From assembly GCF_038502225.1 (NCBI RefSeq), contig NW_027195373.1:108501-172500 (forward strand): 64,000 nt of DNA. Reading direction: 5' to 3'. The notes below the pieces were generated by a model that was not told the origin of the DNA, made no database searches, and saw only the letters and a program-made list of their open reading frames with translations. The position numbers were made by a program, and so were the translations under genes. How positions within the stretch are numbered: the stretch's first letter is position 1; every line of letters begins with the position of its first letter. The stretch is from Cherax quadricarinatus. Lineage: Eukaryota; Arthropoda; Malacostraca; Decapoda; Parastacidae. This document shows, piece by piece, positions 4,036-48,785 of this stretch.

Positions 4036-4212
4036 ACAGACAACTTTCTCAGTATCGTATATCACTTATCAGACATTAAAACAAACAAGGGACAGATTCC
4101 CTAACATTATCCTCTTCAACAACTCACAGGACTTATTACACAGCTTCAAGACTGGTGAAAGCTTGGGTATATCTCAAGAGGATCTGGGGAGTGTAACAAG
4201 CCAAGCTTAAGA

Positions 4213-20327: not shown

Positions 20328-23056
20328 CAGGGTTTGACATGGTTAGGTTAAGGATTCCTAACTTTATTGGCAAGCTAAGAGCTGTTACCTACATCAGCTC
20401 ATTTGAAAGAATTTTTATTGTTATGAGACATACAAGTAGGGAAAAGGATGTAATTGGAGCCATCTGTGGGCCAGCTGAGGGCCATCTGTGAGCCAACTGA
20501 GGGCCGTCTGTGGGCCAGCTGAGGGCCATCTGTGAGCCAGCATTTTCATTTGATCAACTGACTTTATCTCGTTGACATCATAATGCTGTAGGAATGTGTT
20601 CCATACTCGAGTCATCCTGGGGATAATTGATCTCAGATGAAGTGATGTTCTGGAGAAGGTTACAGCCAGAGTCAAGTTGCTGCTGGCTGCCCGTCTTGTG
20701 GTATACAAGCTTGCTTCACGCTGTCCTCGAAGTGGATCCAAGTGTGGTACTTTGACAATATTGGCCTTGTACATAACAGTAAGGCCACCCACATCCCTCC
20801 TATGTTGAAGGCTCTGCTGAAATGACAGATCTATCCAGGATGGGTCCAGGCGAGAGATGAGACGTCTTGCTCTGTTCTCTACTCTGTCAAGCAGTCGCAG
20901 ATGAGGGACAGGCAAACCAAGAAAGTGGAACATACTCAAGGTGTGAGCGTACTTGTGCCTCGTACAGAAGTAGACATTCCATAACAATGGACCCAGCACG
21001 TTTCCTTGTGGAACACTTGCCCCAATAGGATGTCTTGCTGATTCCGTTCCATTGAGGACTACACTTAGAGATCTACCATGAAGGTAATCACTGAGGAGAC
21101 ATAGCGTAGAGCCTGCAATTCCCAGTGCTTGAAGTTTTGCTAAGAGGCCCTGGTGCCACACCCGGTCGAAAGCGCCAGCAATGTCCAGTGCTACCACACA
21201 GCTGATTTTGGATTCATCCAGTGACTGGTGCCACTTAGTGGAGAGGTTTAACAACAGATCAGCAGCAGAGTAACCTTTCCTGAAGCCATATTGACGATCA
21301 CAAAGTAGTGAGTGGTAGTAAAAAAAACTCTGTCATTTGTCTTGAGATTATTGTCTCAAGGATCTTACCAGTGATTGACAGGAGTGACACTGGTCTGTAG
21401 TTGCTGATTTCTGCTCTGCTCTTCTTTTTGTGAACAGGGACTACATTTGCCTCTTTCCATAGAGAGGGCCATTTACACTGTACTAGGCAGTGCTGAAAGA
21501 TGCGAGTTAGAGGTGCTGCTAGCTGGTCTGCACATCTTCTCAACAATCTTGGGCTCAACTTGTCTAGGCCCACAGCGTTTTCTTGGTCAAGCGATTTAAG
21601 AAGGAAATGCACCTCCTCCTGCCTTATTGTCACCACTGACAGTTTTGACACAGTTCTTGCAGCTAGCCAAGGAGGATCCCTTGCTGGATCAGGAACTTGC
21701 ATTTTGGTAGCAAAGTGTTCAGCAAAGAGTTCCGCCTTCTCTTGACTACTAGTAGAGGTGGTCCCATCCTGTCGATTTAGAGGTGGAATAAGTTCATCAG
21801 GCAGATAACCTTGTCTGTCCTTGACCAGGGACCACCAGGTTTTGGAGCCTACCCTACCTGATGCTAGCTTTCTTTTAGTGTCCACCTCCCATTTAGCAAT
21901 GGCCCACTTTTGAACATCACCCATATGCCTACAGGCTTGCATGTGCAAGTTCCTGTTATAGGTGGTAGGATGTCTCTTATACCTTCGCCATGCTTTGTAC
22001 TTAGCAGTAGCAGCCTCTCTACAACGAAAGCCAAACCAAGGCTGATCTGTAGGCTTTGTCACATATTGCCGGTGAGGAATGTGTTCTTGTTGTAGATTAA
22101 GGATGTGTCCAGTAAAGGCTTTCACTTGGTTGTCAACATCCCCTTGGAGAAGAGCATTCCAGTCGGTGGTGGCGAGCTCAGAGCAAAGGGCTGGCCAATT
22201 ACCTCTTTCCCATAGCCAGGTTGTGCGTGTGGACTCCTCACCTCGTTCTGTTGGGATCTTAAGTGTGGTAAAAACAGCCTTGTGGTCAGACGATCCAACG
22301 TAGCCGAGGGGTTGACAAGTGACTATACCTTCTGCCAGATCACTCACTACTGGGTCAAGGGAGGAGCCAGAGATATGAGTAGGGAAATCAACAAAGTTTC
22401 TCATGTCAAACACTGCAAGAAGGTCATCAAAGTCCCTCTGTATAAGGTGCTGGTTGAGGTCACCAACAATTATAATATGTTGACAGTTGTGTTGTAGCAG
22501 AAGGGAGTCAATATTTTCCATTAGGAAGTTGATAGGGTCTGCATGTTGCCACTGAGGTCTGTACATTGCACATACTAGTACAGAGGTACTAGTGTTTATG
22601 TTGCCACTGAGGTCTGTACATTGCACATGCTAGTACAGAGGTACTAGTGTTTATACAGAGCTTGAAGAACATCATTTCAAGATGTGTAGGGGTGGCAACA
22701 TCAATGTGCTGGGCATGAACACTTTTAGAGAAGCACACAGCAACACCTCCTCCTTGCCCTTGCCTGTCTCTTCTCATCCATGAGGTGTAGCCAGCAATTC
22801 TTGCAAAATTTTCTGGAGTCCTGTCATCCAAAAATGTTTCAACAGCTATCATGTCGGGACGTCGAGTGTTCACAAAGCTATGTGTGAGCTCTCCAACATT
22901 AGTAATGAAACCTCTAATGTTGGCCGACAGGATGCTGATAGACTGGCTCCTCATGATGAAGTGGTCAGCTTGAGGTGGTGGGTGTGTAGGGAATGTAAGG
23001 TGCCTGCCCTTGAGAGAGGTAGGGTACTGAGGCAGCTGCAGGGATGTGGGTCTGTG
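20328..23056 (-). mobile_element. Non-LTR retrotransposon copy 2, decayed and 5'-truncated
   Basis: Same family as the copy at 11.7-15.5 kb and nearly identical by eye where they align. It has the same 3' end but lacks the A-tail, and it stops in the ORF1/ORF2 overlap (equivalent to about 14,741). (CT)n lies at both ends. Changes relative to copy 1 are a 410-bp internal deletion, a four-fold expanded 24-bp block near 20,457-20,545, a tandem duplication near 22,590-22,660, and small indels. Confidence 0.92.
20421..23052 (-). pseudogene. Broken LINE ORF2 (endonuclease / reverse transcriptase)
   Basis: Three frames cover what is one ORF2 in the first copy: 22,589-23,239 (endonuclease N-terminus, read through from the CT tract), 21,298-22,626 (rest of the endonuclease to RT motif NYRPVSLL) and 20,421-21,254 (RT from LNLSTKW to the C-terminus). 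A tandem duplication near 22,600 separates the first two and an indel in the A-run near 21,317 separates the last two. The 410-bp deletion, equivalent to 12,305-12,714 of copy 1, removes the YADD catalytic motif and the palm that follows. A second small indel happens to put the C-terminal part back in frame. The protein cannot reverse transcribe. Confidence 0.9.
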
Positions 23057-23092
<36 letters not shown>

Positions 23093-23240
23093 AAACATTC
23101 CTAACATAATAGTAACCAAAGCTTGCAATTGCTGTTGCAGTCGAAATCTTTGCAACAAGTACACAAGAATGTGATTATATTTACCTTGCAATATTGCATT
23201 GTGCAAGTGACGTACACACACACACACACGGCAGTGCACC

Positions 23241-23293
<53 letters not shown>

Positions 23294-23358
23294 GAGAAAG
23301 AGAAGGGAAGTGTCGGAAAATCATCACAAACTAGAATCTCTCTCTCTCTCTCTCTCTG

Positions 23359-23616: not shown

Positions 23617-23621
23617 ACCCC
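23617..23621. other. Left target-site duplication ACCCC
   Basis: ACCCC precedes the left element terminus TGTTACA at 23,622. The identical ACCCC follows the right terminus at 30,259. The preceding CTGCTG matches a unit of the array on the far side of the element. Confidence 0.82.
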
Positions 23622-24111
23622 TGTTACAAAAAACGCGATTCTAAAAGCTTAGAGATCTCCAGTGAATACTAGAAAGGACTGCCCTTCTAGCATCCAGCCT
23701 GTTACTGGGTTTTCGTAACAAGTAGTCAGTATCCTTGTCCAATTATCCATTAAAATTCTGTATTATTCAATAGTGCTTTAGGATTACAACTGGTAGGCTA
23801 CTAACTAGAGAAATTAAAATTTAATAAATTTATTAAGTAGTAAGTCGTCTAGAGGTATATTATCAAATTAAATTAATTACAGCAATCAAAATAAAATCAG
23901 TCTCTCGAGTTCAATATTATTGTGCTGAAAGCACATATCACATTTATAATTCTTAAGTACTATTGAATAATACAGAATTTTAATGGATAATTGGACAAGG
24001 ATACTGACTACTTGTTACGAAAACCCAGTAACAGGCTGGATGCTAGAAGGGCAGTCCTTTCTAGTATTCACTGGAGATCTCTAAGCTTTTAGAATCGCGT
24101 TTTTTGTAACA
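23622..24111. repeat. LTR-derived palindrome: 153-bp arms, 184-bp loop
   Basis: 23,622-23,774 is the reverse complement of 23,959-24,111 with no mismatch that I see. The loop (23,775-23,958) is further LTR sequence in the inverted sense. The switch lies at CTTAAGTAC/TATTG, where the joined LTR positions share AC or TAC. Both arms share variants (ATAATACAG, AGAAGGGCAG) that differ from the right-hand LTR (CCATACTA, AGAAAGGCAG). Confidence 0.9.
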
Positions 24112-25233
24112 AATGGGGGCCTGTCCGGGATAGCGTGTTGCAGCGTCCATAATAGTAAATAAGTATTGGTTTCCTAGTTTGGTTCTAGGCAAAGGACCAA
24201 CACAATCAATAATAAGACGTGAGAATGGTTCACCATGCACGGTGATAGGAATGAGAGGCGCAGGTGGAGGTGTGTGCGCTGGCTTGCCTGTCACTTGACA
24301 CACGTGGCAACGTCGCACATGATCAGCTACTGTTTCCTTCATCTTTGGCCAAGTAAAATGTTTTGCCAGTTTACCGAGTGTCTTCTTGACACCCAAATGT
24401 CCTCCTATGGGACTATTGTGAGCAAAATCAATGGCTTGTTCACGAAATGTAACTGGTAACACAACGAGATGCTTGACTGTGGTGGAAACACTATCAGCTG
24501 ACAACTTACATGTATTTTTCTCCATCAGTACACCGTTACTATAATAGTAACAATTATCGAGATCCTTTGCTTCACTCTCAGTAACTGCTATATCTCTCAG
24601 TCTTTCCAATGACTGATCAACAAACTGATCCTTGATTAAATCATCATGAGTTAGAAATTTAACGTCAGTTGTGTCCTGACTAGGTTGATGACCGGGGGGA
24701 GTCAGTGTTAATGATCCGGGGCGCAGAGCGTCACTAAACAACATATTCAACCCCAAATCATTGTCATCCACTAACTCAACAGGAGACAAGGATGGTTGTT
24801 GAATCTTTGACATAGCTCTAGTAATTGCGCTGAGAGGAAATAAAATAGGTTTCTCTCTACAAGCTTCAATGGCATAATTATCATCAGTGGTATTATCAAT
24901 CACAAGTGGTTCTTTACATATACCAGCATGAAGGATATCGTTCCCTATCAACAAGTCCACTGACCTGATGGGAAATACACCACTGGATATACCCACTGAA
25001 ATATAACCAGTATAATAGCTTGTTTCAATATAAACTTTGTGCAGAGGCACTTTTATAACAGCCCCTCCATAGGCTTCTAACAATACATCTATCTTGCAAT
25101 AGGTATCGTCAGTTATGGGCAGTACATCTTCTCTTAATAACGTGAGATAACTGCCAGTGTCTCTAAAAGAAATTATCTCAGTTAGATGTGATTCGTCAAA
25201 TCCTACTTTATCTCTCGAAAAGTAAGGACTCAT
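24061..25233 (-). pseudogene. Gypsy-type protease and N-terminal half of integrase, truncated
   Basis: The frame is open back to 25,275, directly after the gag stop. Residue numbers are from the Met at 25,233. An aspartic protease segment has RDTGS (24-28) and LLIGNDIL (94-101). After a linker come the integrase zinc finger (His272, His279, Cys309, Cys312, in AHNSPIGGHLG and RRCHVCQ) and the start of the catalytic core, with the first catalytic Asp in IIDCVGPLP (343) and the MDAATRYP segment. At residue 369 the reading runs into inverted primer binding site and LTR, so the last 20 or so residues are not integrase. No reverse transcriptase lies between protease and integrase, an order known from Gmr1-like Gypsy elements. 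Protease would process Gag-Pol. The integrase is inactive because its other two catalytic residues are elsewhere. Confidence 0.85.
24114..24131 (+). other. Primer binding site, tRNA-Pro type (plus copy)
   Basis: TGGGGGCCTGTCCGGGAT begins 2 nt after the LTR end (CA at 24,110-24,111). It is complementary to the 3' end of tRNA-Pro as known from other retroelements. Immediately after its 18th base the sequence becomes inverted integrase coding sequence. Confidence 0.85.
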
Positions 25234-25271
25234 CGCTGAACGAATCTTTTCGTCAGATACACTTTCTGACG

Positions 25272-25278
25272 CTAGTCA
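25272..25278 (-). promoter_or_regulatory. Candidate stop-codon readthrough site TGACTAG
   Basis: The gag stop codon TGA (25,278-25,276) is followed on the minus strand by CTAG. The downstream protease frame is the same frame as gag, with 14 sense codons between the stop and the first Met. UGA-CUA(G) is a known efficient readthrough context in eukaryotic and viral genes. I infer that Gag-Pol is made by readthrough rather than frameshifting. Confidence 0.7.
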
Positions 25279-26817
25279 TCTATCCTGAGTAACATTATCT
25301 AAAACAGTAGGATCAGAGGCATTGCTAGGCTTTTGGTGTCTTTGTTGCACGGAAGAGGATACGACTTGAGTGGGGGCGCCAGCCGCACGACTGTATCTCG
25401 CATCTCTTTCTAATTTATAGCAATACTCTCTAGTATGTCCTTTTCTGTTACAATAGGTACATTTAACTTTCTTCTCGATACCAGATTTCTGTCTAGCCAC
25501 AGAGACAGTTTCAGGATTGTGAGTTTTCCTGGTAATGGTACGAGAAGTTACAGTAACAGGTACATCAGGCCGGCAATGAGCAGCTGATTTAGGTTGCCAA
25601 CTTCTAGGACAATTTTTAGTTACCTTGTTTCTGAGTGTTTTAGTACGTACAAGTTTGTGAGAAATTTCGTAATTGTCTGCTAAGGCTGCAGTTTCCAGAA
25701 TATCCGAGGTAGTATGATCGATAAGATATTCTTGTATGTCAGCAGACATACAGTTGTTAAACTCTTCGTGTAGTAACAACTGAACAAGGCTGTCGTAGTT
25801 GGTACATTTAGCAGCTCTAGTCCATCTCTCAAATGCAACTTTTTTCTCACGAGCAAACTCTACGCAAGTTTGATCTTGTCGTCGTTGTAACGTACGAAAT
25901 GCTCTTTGATAACTTACAGGTAACAAGTTATACGTCTCTAGAATAGTTTGTTTGACAGCGTCATAACTAATGTACATAGCAAATGGCAAGGCAGCCGTAC
26001 AAGTTTGAGCTCTTCCTGTCAAAGCAGTATGAAGCAATGTTGCCCAGTGCTTACGTGGCCAGTTCATAGCACGAGCCTGGTTCTCAAACACATCAAAATA
26101 TGTGTCTAAGTCACTTTCAAAAAACTTAGGAACCATAGATGCAGCTTTCTGCACATTAAATGTGTCCTGTGATCTATCAGTCTGTTGTCTTCCCAGACGA
26201 ACATTTTCTCTTTGGAAATCTTCTTCGTTCAATTTCCTCTGTGCCTCTATTTGTGCAGTCTGCAACATAAGGAGGCGTTCAAACCTCTCAAACTGTTCCT
26301 GAGAGATAGGACCAGTAGGTAATGGAGTAGGGAAATTAACATGGTCTGGACGGTCCTTAGGTCGGACACTTGGTCCAGCCGTCTCTAGAGAGTCTAGATC
26401 TGGTCTAGGATAAGTAGATACAGGTGTATCATACACTGTACTAGTATTAGGCTGTGTCATACTAACAGCTATACTCTGTACTATAGTGTCAGTGAAGGAA
26501 GGAGCGAGCGAGAACTGATCTACACTAGGCTCAGACACTAGGCTCACTTCTGCTCTAGTTGTTCTTTCTTCATCAAATAGAGTCATACTTCCTAATTGTG
26601 ACACTAGGCTTTCTGAATCTGAATCATAATCAGACATCTCTGTATGAGCAGGAAACAAAATATCTTTAATTAATGCTCTGACAGTTTCTGCGGTGTAATT
26701 CCTGTTATACGTCACACCGAGATATTTGGCTACTTGCCAACACGTCTGAAGTTTTAATGTACTTAACTCAGACAAAGTCAGAGTATCAATTAACTGTTTC
26801 ACTTTAGCATACATCAC
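25276..26817 (-). CDS. gag: LTR retrotransposon Gag polyprotein
   Basis: A 513-residue frame starting at ATG 26,817, 265 bp downstream of the primer binding site, which fits a retrotransposon leader. The N-terminal part is helical and charged. The middle (about 225-400) resembles Ty3/Gypsy capsid regions, with a Trp/Phe-rich segment including FFESDLDTYFDVFENQA and RKHWATLLHTALTGRA. Near the C-terminus a single CCHC knuckle, CTYCNRKGHTREYC (about 453-466), is the nucleocapsid-type RNA-binding motif. The protein would form the particle that packages element RNA. The frame is intact and ends in TGA followed in frame by the protease, so it is a complete Gag with a readthrough extension. I find no envelope gene. 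Confidence 0.87.
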   Translation of the reverse strand: MMYAKVKQLIDTLTLSELSTLKLQTCWQVAKYLGVTYNRNYTAETVRALIKDILFPAHTEMSDYDSDSESLVSQLGSMTLFDEERTTRAEVSLVSEPSVDQFSLAPSFTDTIVQSIAVSMTQPNTSTVYDTPVSTYPRPDLDSLETAGPSVRPKDRPDHVNFPTPLPTGPISQEQFERFERLLMLQTAQIEAQRKLNEEDFQRENVRLGRQQTDRSQDTFNVQKAASMVPKFFESDLDTYFDVFENQARAMNWPRKHWATLLHTALTGRAQTCTAALPFAMYISYDAVKQTILETYNLLPVSYQRAFRTLQRRQDQTCVEFAREKKVAFERWTRAAKCTNYDSLVQLLLHEEFNNCMSADIQEYLIDHTTSDILETAALADNYEISHKLVRTKTLRNKVTKNCPRSWQPKSAAHCRPDVPVTVTSRTITRKTHNPETVSVARQKSGIEKKVKCTYCNRKGHTREYCYKLERDARYSRAAGAPTQVVSSSVQQRHQKPSNASDPTVLDNVTQDR

Positions 26818-27082
26818 GAAAATAATTGTACTACGAGAGAGTGATTATTGGAGACTATAATCCTAATAGGAATTTTAGTGTTGGTTGTCTTAGAGCTAGA
26901 ACTCATAAACAGTATTTCCATCTCCTTGGATCAAGAGACTCAGTCAGGTACATACATCCACCTGGTATGTTGTACAAGACTAAACTCAAAGTCTTCAGAT
27001 TAGGAAAGTACTCAAAGTGTTTGATCATAGAAGTACTAGTATGTCAAACTAGACAATTTCTCCAACACCTTGGATCAAGAGC
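26818..27082 (-). other. LTR element leader (5' UTR of gag)
   Basis: A 265-bp non-coding stretch between the inverted primer binding site and the gag ATG. The CTTGGATCAAGA motif occurs twice, near 26,925-26,938 and 27,069-27,080, in this strand's CCTTGGATCAAGAG form. It would be expected to hold the packaging signal, but no specific structure can be claimed. Confidence 0.6.
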
Positions 27083-27100
27083 ATCCCGGACGGGCCCCCA
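27083..27100 (-). other. Primer binding site, tRNA-Pro type (minus copy)
   Basis: On the minus strand TGGGGGCCCGTCCGGGAT starts 2 nt after the LTR end (27,103). It differs from the copy at 24,114-24,131 at one base (CCC versus CCT). This is the site used by the gag-bearing half of the composite. Confidence 0.87.
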
Positions 27101-27102
27101 TT

Positions 27103-27196
27103 TGTTACAAAAAACGCGATTCTAAAAGCTTAGAGATCTCCAGTGAATACTAGAAAGGACTGCCCTTCTAGCATCCAGCCTGTTACTGGGTTTTTC
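27103..27196 (-). repeat. Fragment of the LTR 3' end
   Basis: About 94 bp identical in sequence and variants (AGAAGGGCAG on the minus strand) to the left palindrome arms. It is joined at a shared CGAAAA to integrase coding sequence. Most of the 5' LTR, including any promoter, is missing here. Confidence 0.88.
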
Positions 27197-27197
27197 G

Positions 27198-27684
27198 AAG
27201 CTAGCTCTCTAGCAGCTGTCAAATGTTGCTGCATTAATGAAGGTGAAGTACTCAGTGATGGATTTGATTTTCCTGTCCACACGTCTTTCAACACTGCAAG
27301 AGGACCACGCACTTGGTGTCCGAATATTAATTCAAACGGACTAAATCCGAGACTTTCTTGCTCACTTTCTCTCATAGCGAACAGAAGAAAAGGTATACCC
27401 TCATCCCAGTCTCTAGAAAAATGTTCACAATAAGCTCTCATCATGGACTTTAGTGTCTGATGAAATCTCTCTAGAGCACCTTGTGACTGTGGATGATAAC
27501 TGGTTGAAAGTACAGACTTTATTCCTAGGTGGGATAATGCTTCTCGAAAGATCTTAGAAGTGAAATTAGATCCCTGATCAGATTGTATCTCTCGTGGCAA
27601 TCCAACCTGGGAGAAAAATTTCATCAGCGCTCTCACAATAGCACGAGCATTAATTTTTCTCATAGGAATAGCTTCGGGATAGCG
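27198..27684 (-). pseudogene. C-terminal half of the integrase
   Basis: Begins at TATCCC (27,681-27,676), the same codons at which the N-terminal half stops near 24,130, so the two pieces were once continuous. The open frame listed from Met 27,663 contains SDQGSNF (second catalytic Asp, residue 29), YHPQSQGALERF (catalytic Glu, residue 65) and a C-terminal region with FSPFELIFGHQVRGPL. It ends by reading through the LTR fragment. The integrase catalytic DDE triad is therefore split between 24.2 kb and 27.6 kb, with the pieces in reversed order. It cannot make a working enzyme as arranged. Confidence 0.87.
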
Positions 27685-27839
27685 CTGATGAAATTTTTCT
27701 CCCAGGTTGGATTGCCATACCCAGGAATCTCTGTATCGGCCAAGGTGAGGTTGCTCCTATTGAGGCTAAGGTTCGTGCAATTTCTGAATTTCCAGTGCCA
27801 CAGGATAGGAAAGGAGTACAGAGATTCCTGGGTATGGCA
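27595..27839. repeat. Two overlapping fold-back inversions
   Basis: 27,595-27,631 is the exact reverse complement of 27,681-27,717 (37 bp, integrase sequence). 27,713-27,735 is the exact reverse complement of 27,817-27,839 (23 bp, reverse transcriptase sequence). The two inverted pieces overlap in TGCCA, so the integrase strand passes to the reverse transcriptase strand through two short inverted copies. Confidence 0.92.
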
Positions 27840-28388
27840 GGATATTATCGCAGGTTCTGTCCAAACTTTTCTCAGATTGCAGCTCCTCTTACTGAGCTTA
27901 CTAGTAGCAAAGTTCAGTTCACCTGGACTAGAGATTGTTCATACTCGTTCAAAAGGTTGAAGCGCTTGCTATCCTCTGCTCCTGTGTTGAAAAGTCCTAA
28001 TTTCAATCTTCCCTTCTTTTTACATATAGATGCGAGTGGCTATGCAGTGGGTGCTGTGCTGCTCCAACAGTCAACATCCACTGATATTCTCCATCCTATA
28101 TGTTACTATTCATCTAAGCTTAAACGACACCAGAAAAATTATGCCACTATTGAGAAAGAGGCTCTAGCTCTTGTGGTGTCCTTGGAACATTTTGACGTGT
28201 ATTTGGGCACTTCCCCATTTAAAATTAACGTTTTTTCTGACCACAATCCACTCACCTACATAAATACTATGAAAAGTAAAAATGCTAGGATCATGAGGTG
28301 GGCCCTCAGAATCCAACCTTATTCTATTAGCATAAAACACATAAGTGGTCATTGTAATGTAATTGCCGACGCTCTGTCTCGTCCTTAA
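27738..28388 (+). pseudogene. Reverse transcriptase C-terminus and RNase H
   Basis: The open frame starts at the fold-back junction. GQGEVAPIEAKVRAI and VQRFLGMAGYYRRF are the end of the Ty3/Gypsy reverse transcriptase (thumb/connection). RNase H follows, with catalytic residues in HIDASGYAVGAVL (Asp), YATIEKEALAL (Glu), FSDHNPL (Asp) and the terminal IADALSRP. From the Met at 27,795 these are about residues 79, 120, 149 and 192. The fingers and palm with the YxDD active site are missing. The frame stops at 28,388 and is followed by the 3' UTR and LTR, with no integrase downstream. In canonical Gypsy elements integrase would follow here, so this supports the order integrase, then reverse transcriptase. 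Confidence 0.88.
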
Positions 28389-28985
28389 TAATTATCAGTT
28401 ACATTAAATTAACGTAATTTTATGCCCAAATACCTTTTGTTACTTGCTATGTCAAATTCAGTAAAGTAACTTAATCCCTCCAGCCCATATTAACTATATA
28501 TACTCATGTCATGTCTAATTATTATATTTATATATTCACAGTAATGTTGTGTGAGGAGGAAACAAGCTGAGTGTTGAGTGGGTAGTGTGGTGCGGGTGAT
28601 GTACTGCGTGACGCAACACTGTCCTGCCGCAGACCCCCCCCCTTCACTACACACCTTAAGCTGTTTCATACTCAGATGTTCATACTGCCTCGCATTCCAC
28701 AACCACTACTTAAGAGTGGAATGCAGTCTCCTCTACTATGATCGAGCCTCAACGTGCCCTCCTTTTCAGCGCTATCCTGTCTCTACACTGATGTATATAA
28801 CCACGAGTATGCAGAAATACGATACTGTGTACTGCCCTAGTTAGGGGCATATCCTAGTGACGGACGCTGTAAAATTTTAGAAGTGCTTGGCACAAGAGAC
28901 TCGGATTAATATTTTATTGATATGAGTAACCAGAAATAATGTGATAGACATTCATGCAACTCCTAGTGCGACCCTCTGTCGTGTT
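28389..28985 (+). other. 3' untranslated region of the LTR element
   Basis: About 600 bp between the RNase H stop and the G-tract. It contains a C-run near 28,629 and short frames with no recognisable domain. I see no env-like product (no signal peptide or transmembrane segment). Confidence 0.6.
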
Positions 28986-28993
28986 GGGGGGGG
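28986..28993 (+). other. Polypurine tract candidate
   Basis: Eight consecutive G immediately before TGTTGCA, the proposed LTR start. In LTR elements a purine run here primes plus-strand DNA synthesis. Confidence 0.7.
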
Positions 28994-29165
28994 TGTTGCA
29001 ACCCCTGAATGGGTTACAATGATGATTATGTATATATGTAATGTATATTACCTTTTCATTTAATTTTATATTGCTTATATTTGCGATGATAGCTAAATCG
29101 TAAATGTATGACTTTATATTATTATTTGACTATTATATTGTTATTTAGCTTATGTTGTTAGGATG

Positions 29166-29174
29166 TATATAAAA
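29166..29174 (+). promoter_or_regulatory. LTR TATA-like box
   Basis: TATATAAAA within the LTR, followed 14 nt after its start by TCAGTT (29,180), an initiator-like motif, though the spacing is shorter than usual. Consistent with an RNA polymerase II promoter in U3. The exact start is unknown. Confidence 0.5.
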
Positions 29175-30045
29175 TGTGCTCAGTTAGGCTTGATTGTCAA
29201 ACTACTGTAATTATCGCTTGTCGCTCGTTATACTGCCGGCTTCTGAGCTGCAGTTGTCCACGTAGCTATCACGTGATCGAGGGGGGGTGTCCTCACCTCT
29301 CGTGAAATTGTCAGTCTGCTAGAGACTCGCTTGCTGGTTGGACATTGTCTGTCTGAGTCTGCTGGAGACTCGCTTGTTGGTTGGACAGATTGTCTGTCTC
29401 ATTATTCTTGTTAGTTCTGTAGAACTCTGTTCTCAGAACATTCTATAGACTGTGATTTTCGACGTTGTACTGAGGTTGTGTGTCACTTAGACACTCTGAA
29501 CATCTCAGGTCCTTAGCTATAGCTTCTGACCTAATTTTGTACTGGTTCCTGTGTATTGTCACAGTCACAGTTTTACCTATGCTGAACAAAGATTCAGTAT
29601 TATGGGAGTTTTGTAACTTTTGTGGAGGATCTGCAGATGGTCCCTACTTAGTGTCGTTATATTATCTCCTTGTTCCTGATTCTGTGTCGCAGTCGCTTGA
29701 TATTGCATTGCTATTGGGCTTAGCATTCTTTGTTGTTCAAGCAGACTGTTCGGGTTGCCAGTCGGTCAAGAAGTTAGTTTATTTGAGGACTTTGTCAGTC
29801 ACTTGTTTAAGTCTTATTCGAGTCTTGAGACATAGCTAACTACTTAAGAGCACTTACACGCATACACACTTACTTGTACATATTTGTAATATCTTATTAA
29901 ATGTTAATGTACCTGACGGTACTTAAGAATTATAAATGTGATATGTGCTTTCAGCACAATAATATTGAACTCGAGAGATTGATTTTATTTTGATTGCTGT
30001 AATTTAATTTACATTGATAATATACCTCTAGACAATTTACTACTT

Positions 30046-30051
30046 AATAAA
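30046..30051 (+). terminator. LTR polyadenylation signal
   Basis: AATAAA in the AT-rich part of the LTR. It is also present, inverted, in the left LTR loop. Confidence 0.45.
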
Positions 30052-30258
30052 TTTATTAAATTTTAATTTCTCTAGTTAGTAGCCTACCAGTTGTAATCCT
30101 AAAGCACTATTGAACCATACTAAATTTTAATGGATAATTGGACAAGGATACTGACTACTTGTTACGAAAACCCAGTAACAGGCTGGATGCTAGAAAGGCA
30201 GTCCTTTCTAGTATTCACTGGAGATCTCTAAGCTTTTAGAATCGCGTTTTTTGTAACA

Positions 30259-30263
30259 ACCCC
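30259..30263. other. Right target-site duplication ACCCC
   Basis: Matches 23,617-23,621 and is the start of a normal unit of the array that follows (ACCCCTGCTACCCTGTTG). Confidence 0.82.
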
Positions 30264-30938
30264 TGCTACCCTGTTGACCCTGCTGATCCCTGCTACCCTG
30301 TTGACCCTGCTGAACCCTGCTACCCTGTTGACCCTGCTGACCCCTGCTACCCTGTTGACACTGCTGAGCCCTGCTACCCTATTGACCCTGCTGACCCCTG
30401 CTACCCTGTTGGCCCTGCTGACCCCTGCTACCCTGTTGACCCTGCTGACCTTTGCTACCCTGTTGACCCTGCTGACCCCTGCTACCCTGTTGACCCTGCT
30501 GACCCCTGCTACCCTGTTGACACTGCTGACCCCTGCTACCCTGTTGACCCTGCTGACCTTTGCTACCCTGTTGACCCTGCTGACCTTTGCTACCCTGTTG
30601 ACCCTGCTGACCCCTGCTACCCTGTTGACCCTGCTGACCCTGCTGACCCCTGCTACCCTGTTGACACTGCTGACCCCTGCTACCCTGTTGACCCTGCTGA
30701 CCCCTGCTACCCTGTTGACCCTGCTGACCCCTGCTACCCTGTTGACCCTGCTGACCCCTGCTACCCTGCTGACCCCTGCTACCCTGCTGACCCCTGCTAC
30801 CCTGTTGACCCCTATTACCCTGTTGACCCTGCTGACCCCTGCTACCCTGTTGACACTGCTGACCCCTGTTACCCTGCTGACCCCTGCCACCCTGTTGACC
30901 CTGCTGACCCCTGCTACCCTGTTGACCCTGCTACCCTG
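30264..30938. repeat. 27-bp minisatellite
   Basis: About 25 units of 27 bp containing CTGCTGACCCCTGCTACC and CTGTTGACC, with shorter 18-bp and 9-bp steps at about 30,630 and 30,760-30,800. The 27-bp period equals nine codons, so frames stay open. The array existed before the LTR element landed at its left edge. Confidence 0.94.
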
Positions 30939-30939
30939 C

Positions 30940-33900
30940 TTTCCTCATCCTCTGCTACCCTTCCTTCCTCATCCTCTGCTACCCTGCCTTCCTCATCCTC
31001 TTCTACCCTTCCTTCCTCATCCTCTGCTACCCTGCCTTCCTCATCCTCTTCTACCCTTCCTTCCTCATCCTCTGCTACCCTGCCTTCCTCATCCTCTGCT
31101 ACCCTGCCTTCCTCATCCTCTGCTACCCTGCCTTCCTCATCCTCTGCTACCCTGCCTTCTTCATCCCTTGCTACCCTGCCTTCCTCATCCTCTGCTACCC
31201 TGCCTTCCTTATCCTCTGCTACCCTGCCTTCCTCATCCTCTGCTACCCTGCCTTCCTCATCCTCTGCTACCCTTCCTTCCTCATCCTCTGCTACCCTGCC
31301 TTCCTCATCCTCTGCTACCCTTCCTTCCTCATCCTCTGCTACCCTGCCTTCCTCATCCTCTGCTACCCTTCCTTCCTCATCCTCTGCTACCCTTCCTTCC
31401 TCATCCTCTGCTACCCTTCCTTCCTCATCCTCTGCTACCCTTCCTTCCTCATCCTCTGCTACCCTTCCTTCCTCATCCTCTGCTACCCTTCCTTCCTCAT
31501 CCTCTGCTACCCTGCCTTCCTCATCCTCTGCTACCCTGCCTTCCTCATCCTCTGCTACCCTGCCTTCCTCATCCTCTGCTACCCTTCCTTCCTCATCCTC
31601 TGCTACCCTTCCTTCCTCATCCTCTGCTACCCTTCCTTCCTCATCCTCTGCTACCCTGCCTTCCTCATCCTCTGCTACCCTGCCTTCCTCATCCTCTGCT
31701 ACCCTTCCTTCCTCATCCTCTGCTACCCTTCCTTCTTCATCCCTTGCTACCCTGCCTTCCTCATCCTCTGCTACCCTTCCTTCCTCATCCTCTGCTACCC
31801 TTCCTTCCTCATCCTCTGCTACCCTGCCTTCCTCATCCTCTGCTACCCTGCCTTCCTCATCCTCTGCTACCCTGCCTTCTTCATCCTCTGCTACCCTGCC
31901 TTCCTCATCCTCTTCTACCCTTCCTTCCTCATCCTCTGCTACCCTGCCTTCCTCATCCCCTGCTACCCTGCCTTCCTCATCCTCTGCTACCCTGCCTTCC
32001 TCATCCTCTGCTACCCTGCCTTCCTCATCCTCTGCTACCCTTCCTTCCTCATCCTCTGCTACCCTTCCTTCCTCATCCTCTGCTACCCTTCCTTCCTCAT
32101 CCTCTGCTACCCTGCCTTCCTCATCCTCTGCTACCCTGCCTTCCTCATCCTCTGCTACCCTGCCTTCCTCATCCTCTGCTACCCTTCCTTCCTCATCCTC
32201 TGCTACCCTTCCTTCCTCATCCTCTGCTACCCTTCCTTCCTCATCCCCTGCTACCCTGCCTTCCTCATCCTCTGCTACCCTGCCTTCCTCATCCTCTTCT
32301 ACCCTTCCTTCCTCATCCTCTGCTACCCTGCCTTCCTCATCCTCTGCTACCCTTCCTTCCTCATCCTCTGCTACCCTTCCTTCCTCATCCTCTGCTACCC
32401 TGCCTTCCTCATCCTCTTCTACCCTTCCTTCCTCATTCTCTGCTACCCTGCCTTCCTCATCCTCTGCTACCCTGCCTTCCTCATCCTCTGCTACCCTGCC
32501 TTCCTCATCCTCTGCTACCCTTCCTTCTTCATCCCTTGCTACCCTGCCTTCCTCATCCTCTGCTACCCTGCCTTCCTCATCCTCTGCTACCCTTCCTTCC
32601 TCATCCTCTGCTACCCTTCCTTCCTCATCCTCTGCTACCCTGCCTTCCTCATCCTCTGCTACCCTGCCTTCCTCATCCTCTGCTACCCTGCCTTCCTCAT
32701 CCTCTGCTACCCTGCCTTCCTCATCCTCTGCTACCCTTCCTTCCTCATCCTCTGCTACCCTTCCTTCCTCATCCTCTGCTACCCTGCCTTCCTCATCCTC
32801 TTCTACCCTTCCTTCCTCATCCTCTGCTACCCTTCCTTCCTCATCCTCTGCTACCCTGCCTTCCTCATCCTCTGCTACCCTTCCTTCCTCATCCTCTGCT
32901 ACCCTTCCTTCCTCATCCTCTGCTACCCTGCCTTCCTCATCCTCTGCTACCCTTCCTTCCTCATCCCTTGCTACCCTGCCTTCCTCATCCTCTGCTACCC
33001 TTCCTTCCTCATCCTCTGCTACCCTGCCTTCCTCATCCTCTGCTACCCTGCCTTCCTCATCCTCTGCTACCCTTCCTTCCTCATCCTCTGCTACCCTTCC
33101 TTCCTCATCCTCTGCTACCCTTCCTTCCTCATCCTCTGCTACCCTTCCTTCCTCATCCTCTGCTACCCTGCCTTCCTCATCCTCTTCTACCCTTCCTTCC
33201 TCATCCTCTGCTACCCTTCCTTCCTCATCCTCTGCTACCCTGCCTTCCTCATCCTCTGCTACCCTTCCTTCCTCATCCTCTGCTACCCTTCCTTCTTCAT
33301 CCTCTGCTACCCTGCCTTCCTCATCCTCTGCTACCCTGCCTTCCTCATCCTCTGCTACCCTTCCTTCCTCATCCCTTGCTACCCTGCCTTCCTCATCCTC
33401 TGCTACCCTGCCTTCCTCATCCTCTGCTACCCTTCCTTCCTCATCCTCTGCTACCCTTCCTTCCTCATCCTCTGCTACCCTTCCTTCCTCATCCTCTGCT
33501 ACCCTTCCTTCCTCATCCTCTGCTACCCTGCCTTCCTCATCCTCTTCTACCCTTCCTTCCTCATCCTCTGCTACCCTTCCTTCCTCATCCTCTGCTACCC
33601 TGCCTTCCTCATCCTCTGCTACCCTTCCTTCCTCATCCTCTGCTACCCTTCCTTCCTCATCCTCTGCTACCCTTCCTTCCTCATCCTCTGCTACCCTGCC
33701 TTCCTCATCCTCTTCTACCCTTCCTTCCTCATCCTCTGCTACCCTTCCTTCCTCATCCTCTGCTACCCTGCCTTCCTCATCCTCTGCTACCCTTCCTTCC
33801 TCATCCTCTGCTACCCTTCCTTCCTCATCCTCTGCTACCCTTCCTTCCTCATCCTCTGCTACCCTTCCTTCCTCATCCTCTGCTACCCTGCCTTCCTCAT

Positions 33901-36900
33901 CCTCTGCTACCCTGCCTTCCTCATCCTCTGCTACCCTGCCTTCCTCATCCTCTGCTACCCTTCCTTCCTCATCCCTTGCTACCCTGCCTTCCTCATCCTC
34001 TGCTACCCTGCCTTCCTCATCCTCTGCTACCCTGCCTTCCTCATCCTCTGCTACCCTGCCTTCCTCATCCTCTGCTACCCTGCCTTCCTCATCCTCTGCT
34101 ACCCTTCCTTCCTCATCCTCTGCTACCCTGCCTTCCTCATCCTCTGCTACCCTTCCTTCCTCATCCTCTGCTACCCTTCCTTCCTCATCCTCTGCTACCC
34201 TTCCTTCCTCATCCCTTGCTACCCTGCCTTCCTCATCCTCTGCTACCCTGCCTTCCTCATCCTCTGCTACCCTGCCTTCCTCATCCTCTGCTACCCTTCC
34301 TTCCTCATCCTCTGCTACCCTGCCTTCCTCATCCTCTGCTACCCTGCCTTCCTCATCCTCTGCTACCCTTCCTTCCTCATCCCTTGCTACCCTGCCTTCC
34401 TCATCCTCTGCTACCCTGCCTTCCTCATCCTCTGCTACCCTTCCTTCCTCATCCTCTGCTACCCTTCCTTCCTCATCCTCTGCTACCCTGCCTTCCTCAT
34501 CCTCTTCTACCCTGCCTTCCTCATCCTCTGCTACCCTGCCTTCCTCATCCTCTGCTACCCTGCCTTCCTCATCCTCTGCTACCCTGCCTTCCTCATCCTC
34601 TGCTACCCTGCCTTCCTCATCCTCTGCTACCCTTCCTTCCTCATCCTCTGCTACCCTTCCTTCCTCATCCTCTGCTACCCTTCCTTCCTCATCCCTTGCT
34701 ACCCTGCCTTCCTCATCCTCTGCTACCCTGCCTTCCTCATCCTCTGCTACCCTGCCTTCCTCATCCTCTGCTACCCTGCCTTCCTCATCCTCTGCTACCC
34801 TGCCTTCCTCATCCTCTGCTACCCTGCCTTCCTCATCCTCTGCTACCCTTCCTTCCTCATCCTCTGCTACCCTGCCTTCCTCATCCTCTGCTACCCTGCC
34901 TTCCTCATCCTCTGCTACCCTGCCTTCCTCATCCTCTGCTACCCTTCCTTCCTCATCCTCTGCTACCCTTCCTTCCTCATCCTCTGCTACCCTTCCTTCC
35001 TCATCCCTTGCTACCCTGCCTTCCTCATCCTCTGCTACCCTGCCTTCCTCATCCTCTGCTACCCTGCCTTCCTCATCCTCTGCTACCCTGCCTTCCTCAT
35101 CCTCTGCTACCCTGCCTTCCTCATCCTCTGCTACCCTTCCTCATCCTCTGCTACCCTGCCTTCCTCATCCTCTGCTACCCTGCCTTCCTCATCCTCTGCT
35201 ACCCTGCCTTCCTCATCCTCTGCTACCCTGCCTTCCTCATCCTCTGCTACCCTTCCTTCCTCATCCTCTGCTACCCTGCCTTCCTCATCCCTTGCTACCC
35301 TTCCTTCCTCATCCTCTGCTACCCTGCCTTCCTCATCCTCTGCTACCCTGCCTTCCTCATCCCCTGCTACCCTTCCTTCCTCATCCTCTGCTACCCTGCC
35401 TTCCTCATCCTCTGCTACCCTTCCTTCCTCATCCTCTGCTACCCTGCCTTCCTCATCCCTTGCTACCCTTCCTTCCTCATCCTCTGCTACCCTGCCTTCC
35501 TCATCCTCTGCTACCCTGCCTTCCTCATCCCCTGCTACCCTTCCTTCCTCATCCTCTGCTACCCTTCCTTCCTCATCCTCTGCTACCCTGCCTTCCTCAT
35601 CCCTTGCTACCCTTCCTTCCTCATCCCTTGCTACCCTGCCTTCCTCATCCTCTGCTACCCTGCCTTCCTCATCCTCTGCTACCCTGCCTTCCTCATCCTC
35701 TGCTACCCTGCCTTCCTCATCCTCTGCTACCCTGCCTTCCTCATCCTCTGCTACCCTGCCTTCCTCATCCCCTGCTACCCTGCCTTCCTCATCCTCTGCT
35801 ACCCTTCCTTCCTCATCCCTTGCTACCCTTCCTTCCTCATCCTCTGCTACCCTTCCTTCCTCATCCCTTGCTACCCTGCCTTCCTCATCCTCTGCTACCC
35901 TGCCTTCCTCATCCTCTGCTACCCTGCCTTCCTCATCCTCTGCTACCCTGCCTTCCTCATCCTCTGCTACCCTGCCTTCCTCATCCTCTGCTACCCTTCC
36001 TTCCTCATCCCTTGCTACCCTGCCTTCCTCATCCTCTGCTACCCTTCCTTCCTCATCCTCTGCTACCCTGCCTTCCTCATCCTCTGCTACCCTGCCTTCC
36101 TCATCCTCTGCTACCCTTCCTTCCTCATCCCTTGCTACCCTGCCTTCCTCATCCTCTGCTACCCTTCCTTCCTCATCCCTTGCTACCCTGCCTTCCTCAT
36201 CCTCTGCTACCCTGCCTTCCTCATCCTCTGCTACCCTGCCTTCCTCATCCTCTGCTACCCTGCCTTCCTCATCCTCTGCTACCCTGCCTTCCTCATCCTC
36301 TGCTACCCTGCCTTCCTCATCCTCTGCTACCCTGCCTTCCTCATCCTCTGCTACCCTGCCTTCCTCATCCCCTGCTACCCTGCCTTCCTCATCCTCTGCT
36401 ACCCTTCCTTCCTCATCCTCTGCTACCCTTCCTTCCTCATCCTCTGCTACCCTTCCTTCCTCATCCTCTGCTACCCTGCCTTCCTCATCCTCTGCTACCC
36501 TGCCTTCCTCATCCCCTGCTACCCTGCCTTCCTCATCCCTTGCTACCCTGCCTTCCTCATCCTCTGCTACCCTGCCTTCCTCATCCTCTGCTACCCTTCC
36601 TTCCTCATCCCCTGCTACCCTGCCTTCCTCATCCTCTGCTACCCTGCCTTCCTCATCCCTTGCTACCCTGCCTTCCTCATCCTCTGCTACCCTGCCTTCC
36701 TCATCCCCTGCTACCCTGCCTTCCTCATCCTCTGCTACCCTGCCTTCCTCATCCTCTGCTACCCTTCCTTCCTCATCCTCTGCTACCCTGCCTTCCTCAT
36801 CCTCTGCTACCCTGCCTTCCTCATCCCCTGCTACCCTGCCTTCCTCATCCTCTGCTACCCTTCCTTCCTCATCCTCTGCTACCCTTCCTTCCTCATCCTC

Positions 36901-39900
36901 TGCTACCCTGCCTTCCTCATCCTCTGCTACCCTGCCTTCCTCATCCTCTGCTACCCTTCCTTCCTCATCCTCTGCTACCCTTCCTTCCTCATCCTCTGCT
37001 ACCCTGCCTTCCTCATCCTCTGCTACCCTGCCTTCCTCATCCCCTGCTACCCTGCCTTCCTCATCCTCTGCTACCCTGCCTTCCTCATCCTCTGCTACCC
37101 TTCCTTCCTCATCCTCTGCTACCCTGCCTTCCTCATCCTCTGCTACCCTGCCTTCCTCATCCCCTGCTACCCTGCCTTCCTCATCCTCTGCTACCCTTCC
37201 TTCCTCATCCTCTGCTACCCTTCCTTCCTCATCCTCTGCTACCCTGCCTTCCTCATCCTCTGCTACCCTGCCTTCCTCATCCTCTGCTACCCTTCCTTCC
37301 TCATCCTCTGCTACCCTTCCTTCCTCATCCTCTGCTACCCTGCCTTCCTCATCCTCTGCTACCCTTCCTTCCTCATCCTCTGCTACCCTTCCTTCCTCAT
37401 CCTCTGCTACCCTTCCTTCCTCATCCTCTGCTACCCTGCCTTCCTCATCCTCTGCTACCCTGCCTTCCTCATCCTCTGCTACCCTGCCTTCCTCATCCTC
37501 TGCTACCCTGCCTTCCTCATCCTCTGCTACCCTTCCTTCCTCATCCTCTGCTACCCTTCCTTCCTCATCCTGTGCTACCCTGCCTTCCTCATCCTCTGCT
37601 ACCCTTCCTTCCTCATCCTCTGCTACCCTTCCTTCCTCATCCTCTGCTACCCTTCCTTCCTCATCCTCTGCTACCCTTCCTTCCTCATCCTCTGCTACCC
37701 TTCCTTCCTCATCCTCTGCTACCCTGCCTTCCTCATCCTCTGCTACCCTGCCTTCCTCATCCTCTGCTACCCTTCCTTCCTCATCCCTTGCTACCCTGCC
37801 TTCCTCATCCTCTGCTACCCTGCCTTCCTCATCCTCTGCTACCCTGCCTTCCTCATCCTCTGCTACCCTGCCTTCCTCATCCTCTGCTACCCTTCCTTCC
37901 TCATCCTCTGCTACCCTTCCTTCCTCATCCTCTGCTACCCTGCCTTCCTCATCCTCTGCTACCCTGCCTTCCTCATCCTCTGCTACCCTTCCTTCCTCAT
38001 CCTCTGCTACCCTTCCTTCCTCATCCTCTGCTACCCTGCCTTCCTCATCCTCTGCTACCCTGCCTTCCTCATCCCCTGCTACCCTGCCTTCCTCATCCCC
38101 TGCTACCCTGCCTTCCTCATCCCCTGCTACCCTGCCTTCCTCATCCCTTGCTACCCTGCCTTCCTCATCCCTTGCTACCCTGCCTTCCTCATCCTCTGCT
38201 ACCCTGCCTTCCTCATCCTCTGCTACCCTGCCTTCCTCATCCCCTGCTACCCTGCCTTCCTCATCCTCTGCTACCCTGCCTTCCTCATCCTCTGCTACCC
38301 TGCCTTCCTCATCCTCTGCTACCCTGCCTTCCTCATCCTCTGCTACCCTGCCTTCCTCATCCTCTGCTACCCTGCCTTCCTCATCCCTTGCTACCCTGCC
38401 TTCCTCATCCCTTGCTACCCTGCCTTCCTCATCCTCTGCTACCCTGCCTTCCTCATCCTCTGCTACCCTGCCTTCCTCATCCCCTGCTACCCTGCCTTCC
38501 TCATCCTCTGCTACCCTGCCTTCCTCATCCTCTGCTACCCTGCCTTCCTCATCCCTTGCTACCCTGCCTTCCTCATCCCTTGCTACCCTGCCTTCCTCAT
38601 CCTCTGCTACCCTGCCTTCCTCATCCTCTGCTACCCTGCCTTCTTCATCCCCTGCTACCCTGCCTTCCTCATCCTCTGCTACCCTGCCTTCCTCATCCCC
38701 TGCTACCCTGCCTTCCTCATCCTCTGCTACCCTGCCTTCCTCATCCCTTGCTACCCTGCCTTCCTCATCCTCTGCTACCCTTCCTTCCTCATCCCCTGCT
38801 ACCCTGCCTTCCTCATCCCCTGCTACCCTGCCTTCCTCATCCTCTGCTACCCTGCCTTCCTCATCCTCTGCTACCCTTCCTTCCTCATCCTCTGCTACCC
38901 TTCCTTCCTCATCCTCTGCTACCCTTCCTTCCTCATCCTCTGCTACCCTGCCTTCCTCATCCTCTGCTACCCTGCCTTCCTCATCCTCTGCTACCCTGCC
39001 TTCCTCATCCTCTGCTACCCTTCCTTCCTCATCCTCTGCTACCCTGCCTTCCTCATCCTCTGCTACCCTGCCTTCCTCATCCTCTGCTACCCTGCCTTCC
39101 TCATCCTCTGCTACCCTTCCTTCCTCATCCTCTGCTACTCTTCCTTCCTCATCCTCTGCTACCCTGCCTTCCTCATCCTCTGCTACCCTTCCTTCCTCAT
39201 CCTCTGCTACCCTGCCTTCCTCATCCTCTGCTACCCTGCCTTCCTCATCCTCTGCTACCCTGCCTTCCTCATCCCCTGCTACCCTGCCTTCCTCATCCCT
39301 TGCTACCCTGCCTTCCTCATCCCTTGCTACCCTGCCTTCCTCATCCTCTGCTACCCTGCCTTCCTCATCCTCTGCTACCCTGCCTTCCTCATCCTCTGCT
39401 ACCCTGCCTTCTTCATCCTCTGCTACCCTGCCTTCCTCATCCCTTGCTACCCTGCCTTCCTCATCCTCTGCTACCCTGCCTTCCTCATCCTCTGCTACCC
39501 TGCCTTCCTCATCCCTTGCTACCCTGCCTTCCTCATCCCCCGCTACCCTGCCTTCCTCATCCCTTGCTACCCTGCCTTCCTCATCCTCTGCTACCCTGCC
39601 TTCCTCATCCTCTGCTACCCTGCCTTCCTCATCCTCTGCTACCCTGCCTTCCTCATCCTCTGCTACCCTGCCTTCTTCATCCTCTGCTACCCTGCCTTCC
39701 TCATCCCTTGCTACCCTGCCTTCCTCATCCCCCGCTACCCTGCCTTCCTCATCCCTTGCTACCCTGCCTTCCTCATCCCTTGCTACCCTGCCTTCCTCAT
39801 CCTCTGCTACCCTGCCTTCCTCATCCCCTGCTACCCTGCCTTCCTCATCCCTTGCTACCCTGCCTTCCTCATCCCTTGCTACCCTGCCTTCCTCATCCTC

Positions 39901-40592
39901 TGCTACCCTGCCTTCCTCATCCCTTGCTACCCTGCCTTCCTCATCCCTTGCTACCCTGCCTTCCTCATCCTCTGCTACCCTGCCTTCCTCATCCCCTGCT
40001 ACCCTGCCTTCCTCATCTCCTGCTACCCTGCCTTCCTCATCCTCTGCTACCCTGCCTTCCTCGTCCCCTGCTACCCTGCCTTCCTCATCCCCTGCTACCC
40101 TGCCTTCCTCATCCTCTGCTACCCTGCCTTCCTCATCCTCTGCTACCCTGCCTTCCTCATCCCCTGCTACCCTGCCTTCCTCATCCCCTGCTACCCTGCC
40201 TTCCTCATCCTCTGCTACCCTGCCTTCCTCATCCCTTGCTACCCTGCCTTCCTCATCCTCTGCTACCCTGCCTTCCTTATCCTCTGCTACCCTGCCTTCC
40301 TCATCCCCTGCAACCCTGCCTTCTTCATCCTCTGCTACCCTTCCTTCCTCATCCTCTGCTACCCTGCCTTTTTCGTCCCCTGCTACCCTTCCTTCCTCAT
40401 CCCCTGCTACCCTGCCTTCCTCATCCTCTTCTACCCTGCCTTCCTCATCCCCTGCTACCCTGCCTTCCTCGTCCCCTGCTACCCTTCCTTCCTCATCCCC
40501 TGCTACCCTGCCTTCCTCATCCTCTTCTACCCTGCCTTCCTCATCCTCTGCTACCCTGCCTTCCTCATTCCCTGCTACCCTGCTTGGTGCCC
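30940..40592. repeat. 24-bp minisatellite, about 400 units (9.65 kb)
   Basis: Unit of 24 bp with CTACCCTGCCTTCCTCATCC. Two sites vary independently: TGCC or TTCC, and CCTCTGC, CCCCTGC or CCCTTGC. The 24-bp period is kept throughout as far as I can follow it, except for one 20-bp unit at about 35,130, where TTCC is lost. Because 24 is a multiple of three, [16 protein letters not shown] and (antisense) EGRVAEDE frames stay open for thousands of codons on both strands. The CCCTTGC/CCCCTGC subtype becomes common only to the right of about 38 kb. Confidence 0.96.
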
Positions 40593-44400: not shown

Positions 44401-44743
44401 GTCTTGAAGACAACCAGGGGTCTTGAAGACAACCAGGGGTCTTAAAGACAACCAGGGGTCTTGAAGACAACCAGGGATCTTGAAGACAACCAGGGGTCTT
44501 GAAGACAACCAGGGGTCTTGAAGACAACCAGGGGTCTTGAAGACAACCAGGGGTCTTGAAGACAACCAGGGGTCTTGAAGACAGCCAGGGGTCTTGAAGA
44601 CAACCAGGGGTCTTGAAGACAACCAGGGGTCTTGAAGACAACCAGGGGTCTTGAAGACAACCAGGGGTCTTGAAGACAACCAGGGGTCTTGAAGACAACC
44701 AGGGGTCTTGAAGACAACCAGGGGTCTTGAAGACAACCAGGGG
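41420..44743. repeat. 19-bp minisatellite, about 180 units
   Basis: Unit CCAGGGGTCTTGAAGACAA (19 bp) with GGTGTC, GACAGCC and GGAGTC variants. A shorter 16-bp form lacks GAA (TTGACAACC) and is concentrated at 42,000-43,520. The array ends in GGGGTCTATTGGTAATG, joining the right remnant of the dispersed repeat. Minus-strand frames of up to 1,241 codons are artefacts, since three 19-bp units make 57 bp with no stop. Confidence 0.96.
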
Positions 44744-46382: not shown

Positions 46383-46487
46383 CACAAAGTACCTCTAAAT
46401 ATGCAAACAAAAATGTCGGAGTTACTCTACATTGTCCACATTAATTGTCGTCTCCTTCCTGACACACTTCTTATTCTCCTCTATAAT

Positions 46488-48778: not shown

Positions 48779-48785
48779 CTATTCA

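Follow-up and report, generated by a model that had tools for sequence, protein, structure and literature searches.

How can a single retrotransposon insertion carry the same end of its long terminal repeat (LTR) at both outer limits, around an interior in which genes run in both directions? The question is raised by a stretch of 64,000 nucleotides from Cherax quadricarinatus (contig NW_027195373.1, positions 108,501 to 172,500; called here the window, whose own numbering is used throughout). It contains an insertion at 23622-30258, with ACCCC on either side (23617-23621 and 30259-30263), made of seven pieces, A to G, which meet at six internal joints with short common bases. The insertion is probably one aberrant reverse-transcription product of a Gmr1-like Ty3/gypsy retrotransposon, made before integration and inserted via two U5 ends. 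The pieces and their orientations are listed below; where coordinates overlap, the bases are common to both sides of a joint.

23617-23621: left target-site duplication ACCCC, from the sequence.
23622-23960, minus strand: piece A, antisense 3' end of the LTR, matching 29919-30258; proposed R-U5, i.e. minus-strand strong-stop DNA; its outer end is the U5 terminus.
23959-24131, plus strand: piece B, 153 nt of sense U5 identical to A, then AA, then the primer-binding site (PBS; 24114-24131) over exactly 18 nt, with T at 24122.
24126-27194, minus strand: piece C, N-terminal part of integrase, protease, gag, 5' untranslated region (UTR), PBS and last 92 nt of U5.
27083-27100, minus strand: within piece C, the PBS, C variant.
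27103-27194, minus strand: within piece C, the last 92 nt of U5.
27195-27684, minus strand: piece D, integrase from core to C-terminal part; it adjoins the start of C in native integrase.
27681-27717, plus strand: piece E, 37-nt inverted exact copy of 27595-27631 in D.
27713-27735, minus strand: piece F, 23-nt inverted exact copy of 27817-27839 in reverse transcriptase (RT).
27732-30258, plus strand: piece G, C-terminal end of RT, RNase H, 3' UTR, polypurine tract and complete LTR; left limit placed from a related protein.
29919-30258, plus strand: proposed R-U5 in the intact LTR, placed from the extent of A and from RNA structure.
30259-30263: right target-site duplication ACCCC, the first unit of a 27-bp tandem array, from the sequence.

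An earlier note on this DNA had described identical LTR termini with ACCCC duplicated outside them, and this was found at the coordinates given above: TGTTACA, the antisense LTR end, begins at 23622, and TGTAACA, the sense one, finishes at 30258. Both outer ends are the U5 end of one LTR, antisense on the left and sense on the right. When the left LTR end was aligned with the inverted right one, identity was 96.8% over 340 columns (10 substitutions and 1 gap). The AA that precedes the PBS is present at both inner U5 ends and absent at both outer ones, as expected, because integrase trims two bases from LTR ends. The insertion shows a target duplication beside processed LTR ends, as a single integrase-mediated event should. 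The U5 terminus is present in four copies, more than one provirus supplies: two adjoin the target duplication, two adjoin AA and the PBS, and none is joined to an internal site of the element. The exact U3 5' terminus, in contrast to the four U5 ends, has one copy only, internal, at 28994. No target-type duplication was found at the internal joints in the joint alignments; the earlier note had named such duplications as what separate insertions would leave. Its proposals that the rearrangement took place before integration and that integrase used two U5-type ends are both well supported. Directly to the left of the insertion, on the minus strand at 20421-23320, lies a non-LTR element of the LINE (long interspersed nuclear element) type in pieces, one with a reverse transcriptase domain (PF00078, E 2.7e-14) and the next without Pfam match.

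From which element do the pieces come? By its sequence it appears to be a Gmr1-like Ty3/gypsy element, in which integrase precedes RT in native order. The features concerned are the following.

25279-26814, minus strand: gag open reading frame (ORF) with SCAN-like region, followed in frame by TGA CTA G before protease; from ORF and Pfam.
24134-25275, minus strand: protease and integrase zinc-binding (H2C2) region in one open frame; from ORF, Pfam and alignment.
28986-28993, plus strand: polypurine tract (G8) adjoining the LTR start; read from the sequence.
28994-30258, plus strand: complete LTR, 1,265 bp, TGTTGCA...TGTAACA; start placed from the polypurine tract and the terminal inverted repeat.

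Integrase comes directly after protease in the frame 24134-25275, which was aligned with the related Cherax protein P0001; the frame carries a DTG motif of protease type, together with a match to the zinc-binding domain of integrase (PF17921, E 1.4e-17). The integrase core (PF00665, E 1.1e-09) was recognised in the second integrase piece, and RNase H (PF17919, E 6e-33) in the plus-strand piece, where RT is represented by its C-terminal end only. RNase H is last: its stop codon ends at 28388, and 597 nt separate it from the G8 tract. In gag, a SCAN-like region was detected (PF02023, E 4.1e-07, 30.1 bits for a cut-off of 27). Integrase after protease and in one frame with it, RNase H last before the 3' UTR and LTR, and a SCAN-like capsid in gag are what Gmr1-like elements have. 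The family itself is ordinary, whereas the present copy is rearranged and cannot work. Among 3 matches, the best for gag was a Cherax quadricarinatus protein with 95% identity over 74% of gag length, in a search that scored only the 8,000 candidates with most common words; the protease-integrase piece had as best of 23 matches, by E-value, another Cherax protein (40% identity over 99%). Gag and protease (25270-25280, minus strand) are in the same frame with only TGA CTA G between them, which resembles a stop-codon readthrough signal. In P0001, a gag-type zinc knuckle and protease share one open frame.

The genes had largely been recognised before: gag, protease and the N-terminal part of integrase on the minus strand (24126-26814), a second integrase piece (27195-27684), and RT/RNase H with a complete LTR on the plus strand. 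The "wrong order" that the earlier note ascribed to the minus-strand genes holds for the two integrase halves but not for the gag-protease-integrase row, which is native in Gmr1-like elements. Since integrase natively precedes RT, the sole departure from the normal order is the integrase, which is split and has its halves swapped. To the pieces already described we add three, namely the sense U5 with PBS (23959-24131) and the inverted copies of integrase (27681-27717) and RT (27713-27735).

How these pieces derive from each other could be read from their identities. A and B are identical at 153 of 153 positions, the U5 of C is identical to A and to B (92/92 each), E to D (37/37), and F to G (23/23). 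Local copies thus have 0 differences in 305 positions, whereas A differs from the right LTR at 10 of 339 (Fisher p about 0.002, computed with 306 entered in place of 305). The limits of the short pieces were set where identity ends, so that their zero differences are partly built in. By the contrast in these counts, the two outer ends came from different templates, the right LTR from another one than A, while B came from A. The sole difference among the duplicated U5-PBS copies lies at PBS base 9, T (24122) versus C, that is 1 of 112 columns between B and C; a difference at this place would be expected had the PBS of B been copied from the host tRNA.

The pieces, their orientations, the exact copies, the bases at the joints and the ACCCC on both flanks are read directly from the sequence, and from them we infer the following order of events. 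Two tRNA-primed minus-strand DNAs would have gone wrong and been joined, 3' end to 3' end, before integration. On the first, a tRNA-primed minus strand would have extended over U5 and R and ended, probably where the RNA itself ends at 5', giving A. The 3' end of A would then have folded back and copied A itself up to its own tRNA-linked 5' end, the copying running on through 18 tRNA bases to yield a sense U5-AA-PBS strand, B. The PBS end of B (...CGGGAT) may have annealed to a complementary stretch of six bases in the integrase region of a genomic RNA; extended from there as a minus strand, it would have run through protease, gag, the PBS and 92 nt of U5, giving C. At an A/T run, the strand would have jumped to the C-terminal part of integrase and copied D down to where C had begun, probably the edge of the RNA removed by RNase H, before a second fold-back of 37 nt produced E. 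The other strand would be a second, otherwise normal minus strand (U5-R-U3-RNase H-RT) with a different LTR variant, which folded back over 23 nt (G and F). The two 3' ends would have annealed over TGCCA and then been filled in. Both outer ends would be U5 because both would be the 5' ends of tRNA-primed minus strands. For the short inserts E and F, an equally good source would be two cDNAs that were united by host end joining before integration.

The joints themselves have the following common bases. These are AC at A/B and, by script count, AGCG at D/E and TGCCA at E/F; at B/C they are CGGGAT, taken from the printed alignment since the T/C difference broke the script count. Two joints, each read against one parent sequence, are less certain: C/D, an A4 run within an A/T run, and F/G, where TGT or more is common if the Cys codon of protein P0024 (...FCIGQGEV) is the same here. 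By alignment to P0001, C ends and D begins at one place in integrase (...DAATRYP / YPEAIPM), and the start of C and the end of D lie within ten bases of each other. This proximity fits RNase H removing RNA behind C, with D losing its template at the edge so created.

At the turn from A to B, if the top strand of A is regarded as a DNA strand growing to 23960, the 3' end of A can pair with 20 upstream positions exactly at the start of B, with 15 standard pairs, 2 G-T pairs and 3 mismatches. Using a simple, ungapped self-pairing score devised for the present analysis, the observed turn scored 30 and ranked first of 49 sites, the next one reaching 13. The end matching that of A (29919) was also first among 2,464 ends on the G minus strand, scanned with a 340-base upstream limit (score 30), and a score of 30 was attained by 1 in 1,000 shuffles of A that preserved dinucleotides. 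Strong pairing stands behind the A/B turn only. If A had been copied to its 5' end, U5 alone would be expected unless something was attached to that end, and B goes on: it continues past the end of A through AA and exactly 18 PBS bases (24114-24131), and departs from the element's own sequence as early as base 19. An identical copy that parts from the element after 18 PBS bases is what a self-primed strong-stop DNA should leave. In retroviruses, the tRNA primer on the minus strand is copied for 18 bases, up to a modified base. A PBS length of about 18 is given in PMC12789967.

Is A then a strong-stop DNA, i.e. R-U5? It ends at the position matching 29919 of the intact LTR. AATAAA/ATTAAA signals are present at 30046 and 30055, and another one at 29896; judged by the first two, the border between R and U5 would lie a short way downstream. 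These two signals fall in a stretch of 48 nt (30028-30075) inside the proposed R that is self-complementary (79%). Folded as RNA, 29919-30258 was far more stable than its shuffles (z -3.68, 0 of 100 as good). In a comparison of 18 stretches of 340 nt, some overlapping, taken from the LTR, the 3' UTR and 24140-26859 (the latter folded on the strand opposite to the genes), it had the lowest z (-4.63), compared to -0.45 for the stretch just before it and -3.45 for one U3 stretch. Such predicted folding suits a retroelement leader, and is no proof of a transcription start. Self-priming of minus-strand strong-stop DNA has been described for human immunodeficiency virus type 1 (HIV-1), where it is TAR-dependent and where, as proposed here, the DNA folds back and primes on itself (PMC4668388); it is also the subject of a title cited by PMC10986323. 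In HIV-1 the nucleocapsid reduces it, and the reaction was seen with test substrates and gives aberrant cDNA (PMC4668388), whereas the present product appears to have integrated.

Several points weigh against the scenario of two misprimed minus strands, or against parts of it. The insertion is known from one copy. The ACCCC duplication is weaker evidence than it appears: the right flank consists of a tandem array of 27-bp units (30259-30940, 25.3 copies), with 20 occurrences of ACCCC in 30259-31000, which makes a five-base match between flanks less surprising. That A is R-U5 minus-strand strong-stop DNA is proposed, not proven. Other ends on the G minus strand come close behind that of A in self-pairing (the next one scores 29, others 28, and 14 ends reach 27). 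In its minimum-energy fold as DNA, A has an unpaired 3' end and no priming hairpin, and its folding is not better than that of shuffles (z -0.93; 23 of 100 did as well or better). At the other two turns pairing is poor, the D site ranking second for end 27684 and falling outside the six best for 27683, and the G' site falling outside the six best for ends 27732-27735. With 12 breakpoints in about 7 kb, by our estimate, the coincidence of the start of C and the end of D is not rare enough to serve as proof. As for the tRNA, animal tRNA-Pro is not known to match either PBS variant perfectly, so that we give copying of the PBS of B from a host tRNA an even chance at best. In Ty3, the PBS is not perpetuated by tRNA copying (PMC5371799), and a title cited in the same article says so for Ty1. 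Searches around this step brought little: ARAGORN found no tRNA gene in the window, a scan of viral contigs with the U5-PBS string gave no match, and a literature search for four PBS/tRNA-end strings found none. Viral-contig scans with two tRNA-Pro patterns were uninformative, with no match for one pattern and a single match, in contig L001, for the other; we take the latter as chance, ARAGORN having found no tRNA in L001.

Among other explanations, one keeps the rearrangement before integration and changes its agent. Host end joining, of the polymerase-theta type, would have fused broken or incomplete extrachromosomal cDNAs, the inverted inserts being templated fillers, and the two surviving U5 ends would then have integrated. 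Short shared bases at joints and short templated inserts are habits of polymerase-theta end joining, and the insertion has both: 2-6 common bases at its joints, with E (37 nt) and F (23 nt) beside one of them. The weak self-pairing at the D and G' turns suits this explanation as well. It does not predict, however, that B should run through AA and exactly 18 PBS bases, that C should begin where D ends, or that the A/B turn should have a long imperfect stem. We consider it unlikely for the insertion as a whole, and a fair rival mainly for E and F. A technical origin, by chimeric reads in the library or the assembly, seems very unlikely to us: inverted chimeras are common artefacts, but ACCCC lies on both sides in phase with the array (when the flanks are joined through one ACCCC, the repeat phase is restored), and the turns skip about 187, 53-56 and 85-88 nt, apparently unlike adapter-missing palindromes.

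The remaining explanations place the rearrangement in the chromosome or let the cDNA attack itself. Two ordinary elements could have inserted in opposite orientation at one position of the ACCCC array, a later chromosomal rearrangement having removed and shuffled what separated them. The abundance of ACCCC in the right flank and the four U5 termini speak for this. However, the right element's 5' LTR should match its 3' LTR, and the sole sense 5' piece, B, is identical to A and differs from G; moreover, the left flank has only about 12 bp of array, and the exact local fold-back copies are left unexplained. We regard it as improbable, though slightly less so than a technical origin. A single normal provirus rearranged in place, by inversions or replication-based template switching, is hardly credible: the microhomology at the joints is typical of such repair, but a lone provirus would supply two U5 ends where four are present, and should be bounded by U3 and U5, whereas the exact U3 terminus is only internal. 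A simple inversion of one provirus was rejected by the four U5 ends and the presence of U5 at both outer limits. Least credible of all is autointegration, in which the cDNA would have attacked itself, as happens in the inverted or deleted circles of retroviruses; the earlier note had offered it as a parallel. Inverted structures do result from it, but a U5 or U3 end linked to an internal site should then be present; none of the four U5 ends is so joined, and the joint alignments show no 5-bp duplication beside an LTR end. It was rejected.

We looked for known cases of similar make-up. In human T-cell leukaemia virus type 1 subtype c (HTLV-1c), internal inversions were found in 1.9% of sequenced proviruses, 58 of 185 deletion joints showed microhomology of 4-10 bp, and the authors favour a change after integration (PMC13427564). 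Rearranged HIV-1 and HTLV-1 proviruses resemble the present insertion by their internal inversions, and HTLV-1c also by microhomology at deletion joints, but the excerpted account mentions neither two U5 outer ends nor a tRNA-length copy of the PBS (PMC13427564). HIV-1 integrase with LEDGF binds two U5 duplexes (PMC3623958); these were short DNAs in vitro, whereas here a natural event in a retrotransposon is proposed. Among the titles and opening lines of abstracts listed in a literature search on inverted, autointegrated or rearranged LTR elements and proviruses, with subscription literature largely outside its reach, none told of a genomic insertion of such make-up. Scans of viral contigs with the integrase piece and with the RT/RNase H piece gave 3 and 5 pattern matches, and a scan of genome contigs with the latter gave 63; none was confirmed.

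A large part of the window consists of different long minisatellite arrays, one after another, whose units measure about 19-30 bp; examples, 90-96% alike, are those at 4822-11190, 30928-40583, 41422-44746, 46473-48782, 50961-55600 and 56673-58823. At 3283-4042, an array of a 32-bp unit with a near-palindrome (TCTCAGTGTATATACACTGAGA) gives many overlapping inverted repeats. On the plus strand at 59991-62833 lies a fairly intact LINE, in whose two neighbouring open frames endonuclease (PF03372, E 3.7e-11) and reverse transcriptase (PF00078, E 1.9e-38) were recognised.

What is known of aberrant intermediates of reverse transcription comes mostly from reactions in the test tube. Here every joint is readable, and several have a specific, checkable cause. 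In its strongest form, which we put forward tentatively and hold to be somewhat less probable than its alternatives taken together, the insertion would be a natural genomic fossil of a self-primed strong-stop DNA, in which 18 bases of a host tRNA were copied, the hairpin grew by mispriming and was joined to the minus strand of a second genome, and the U5-U5 product was accepted for integration. The locus makes three questions testable: whether the integrase of an LTR retrotransposon naturally uses two U5 ends, whether self-primed strong-stop DNA can reach a genome, and whether the PBS is copied from tRNA in the present lineage. If the proposal is true, copying of the tRNA primer sets this animal Ty3/gypsy lineage apart from Ty1 and Ty3, and integrants of the U5-U5 kind may form a class so far unrecognised.

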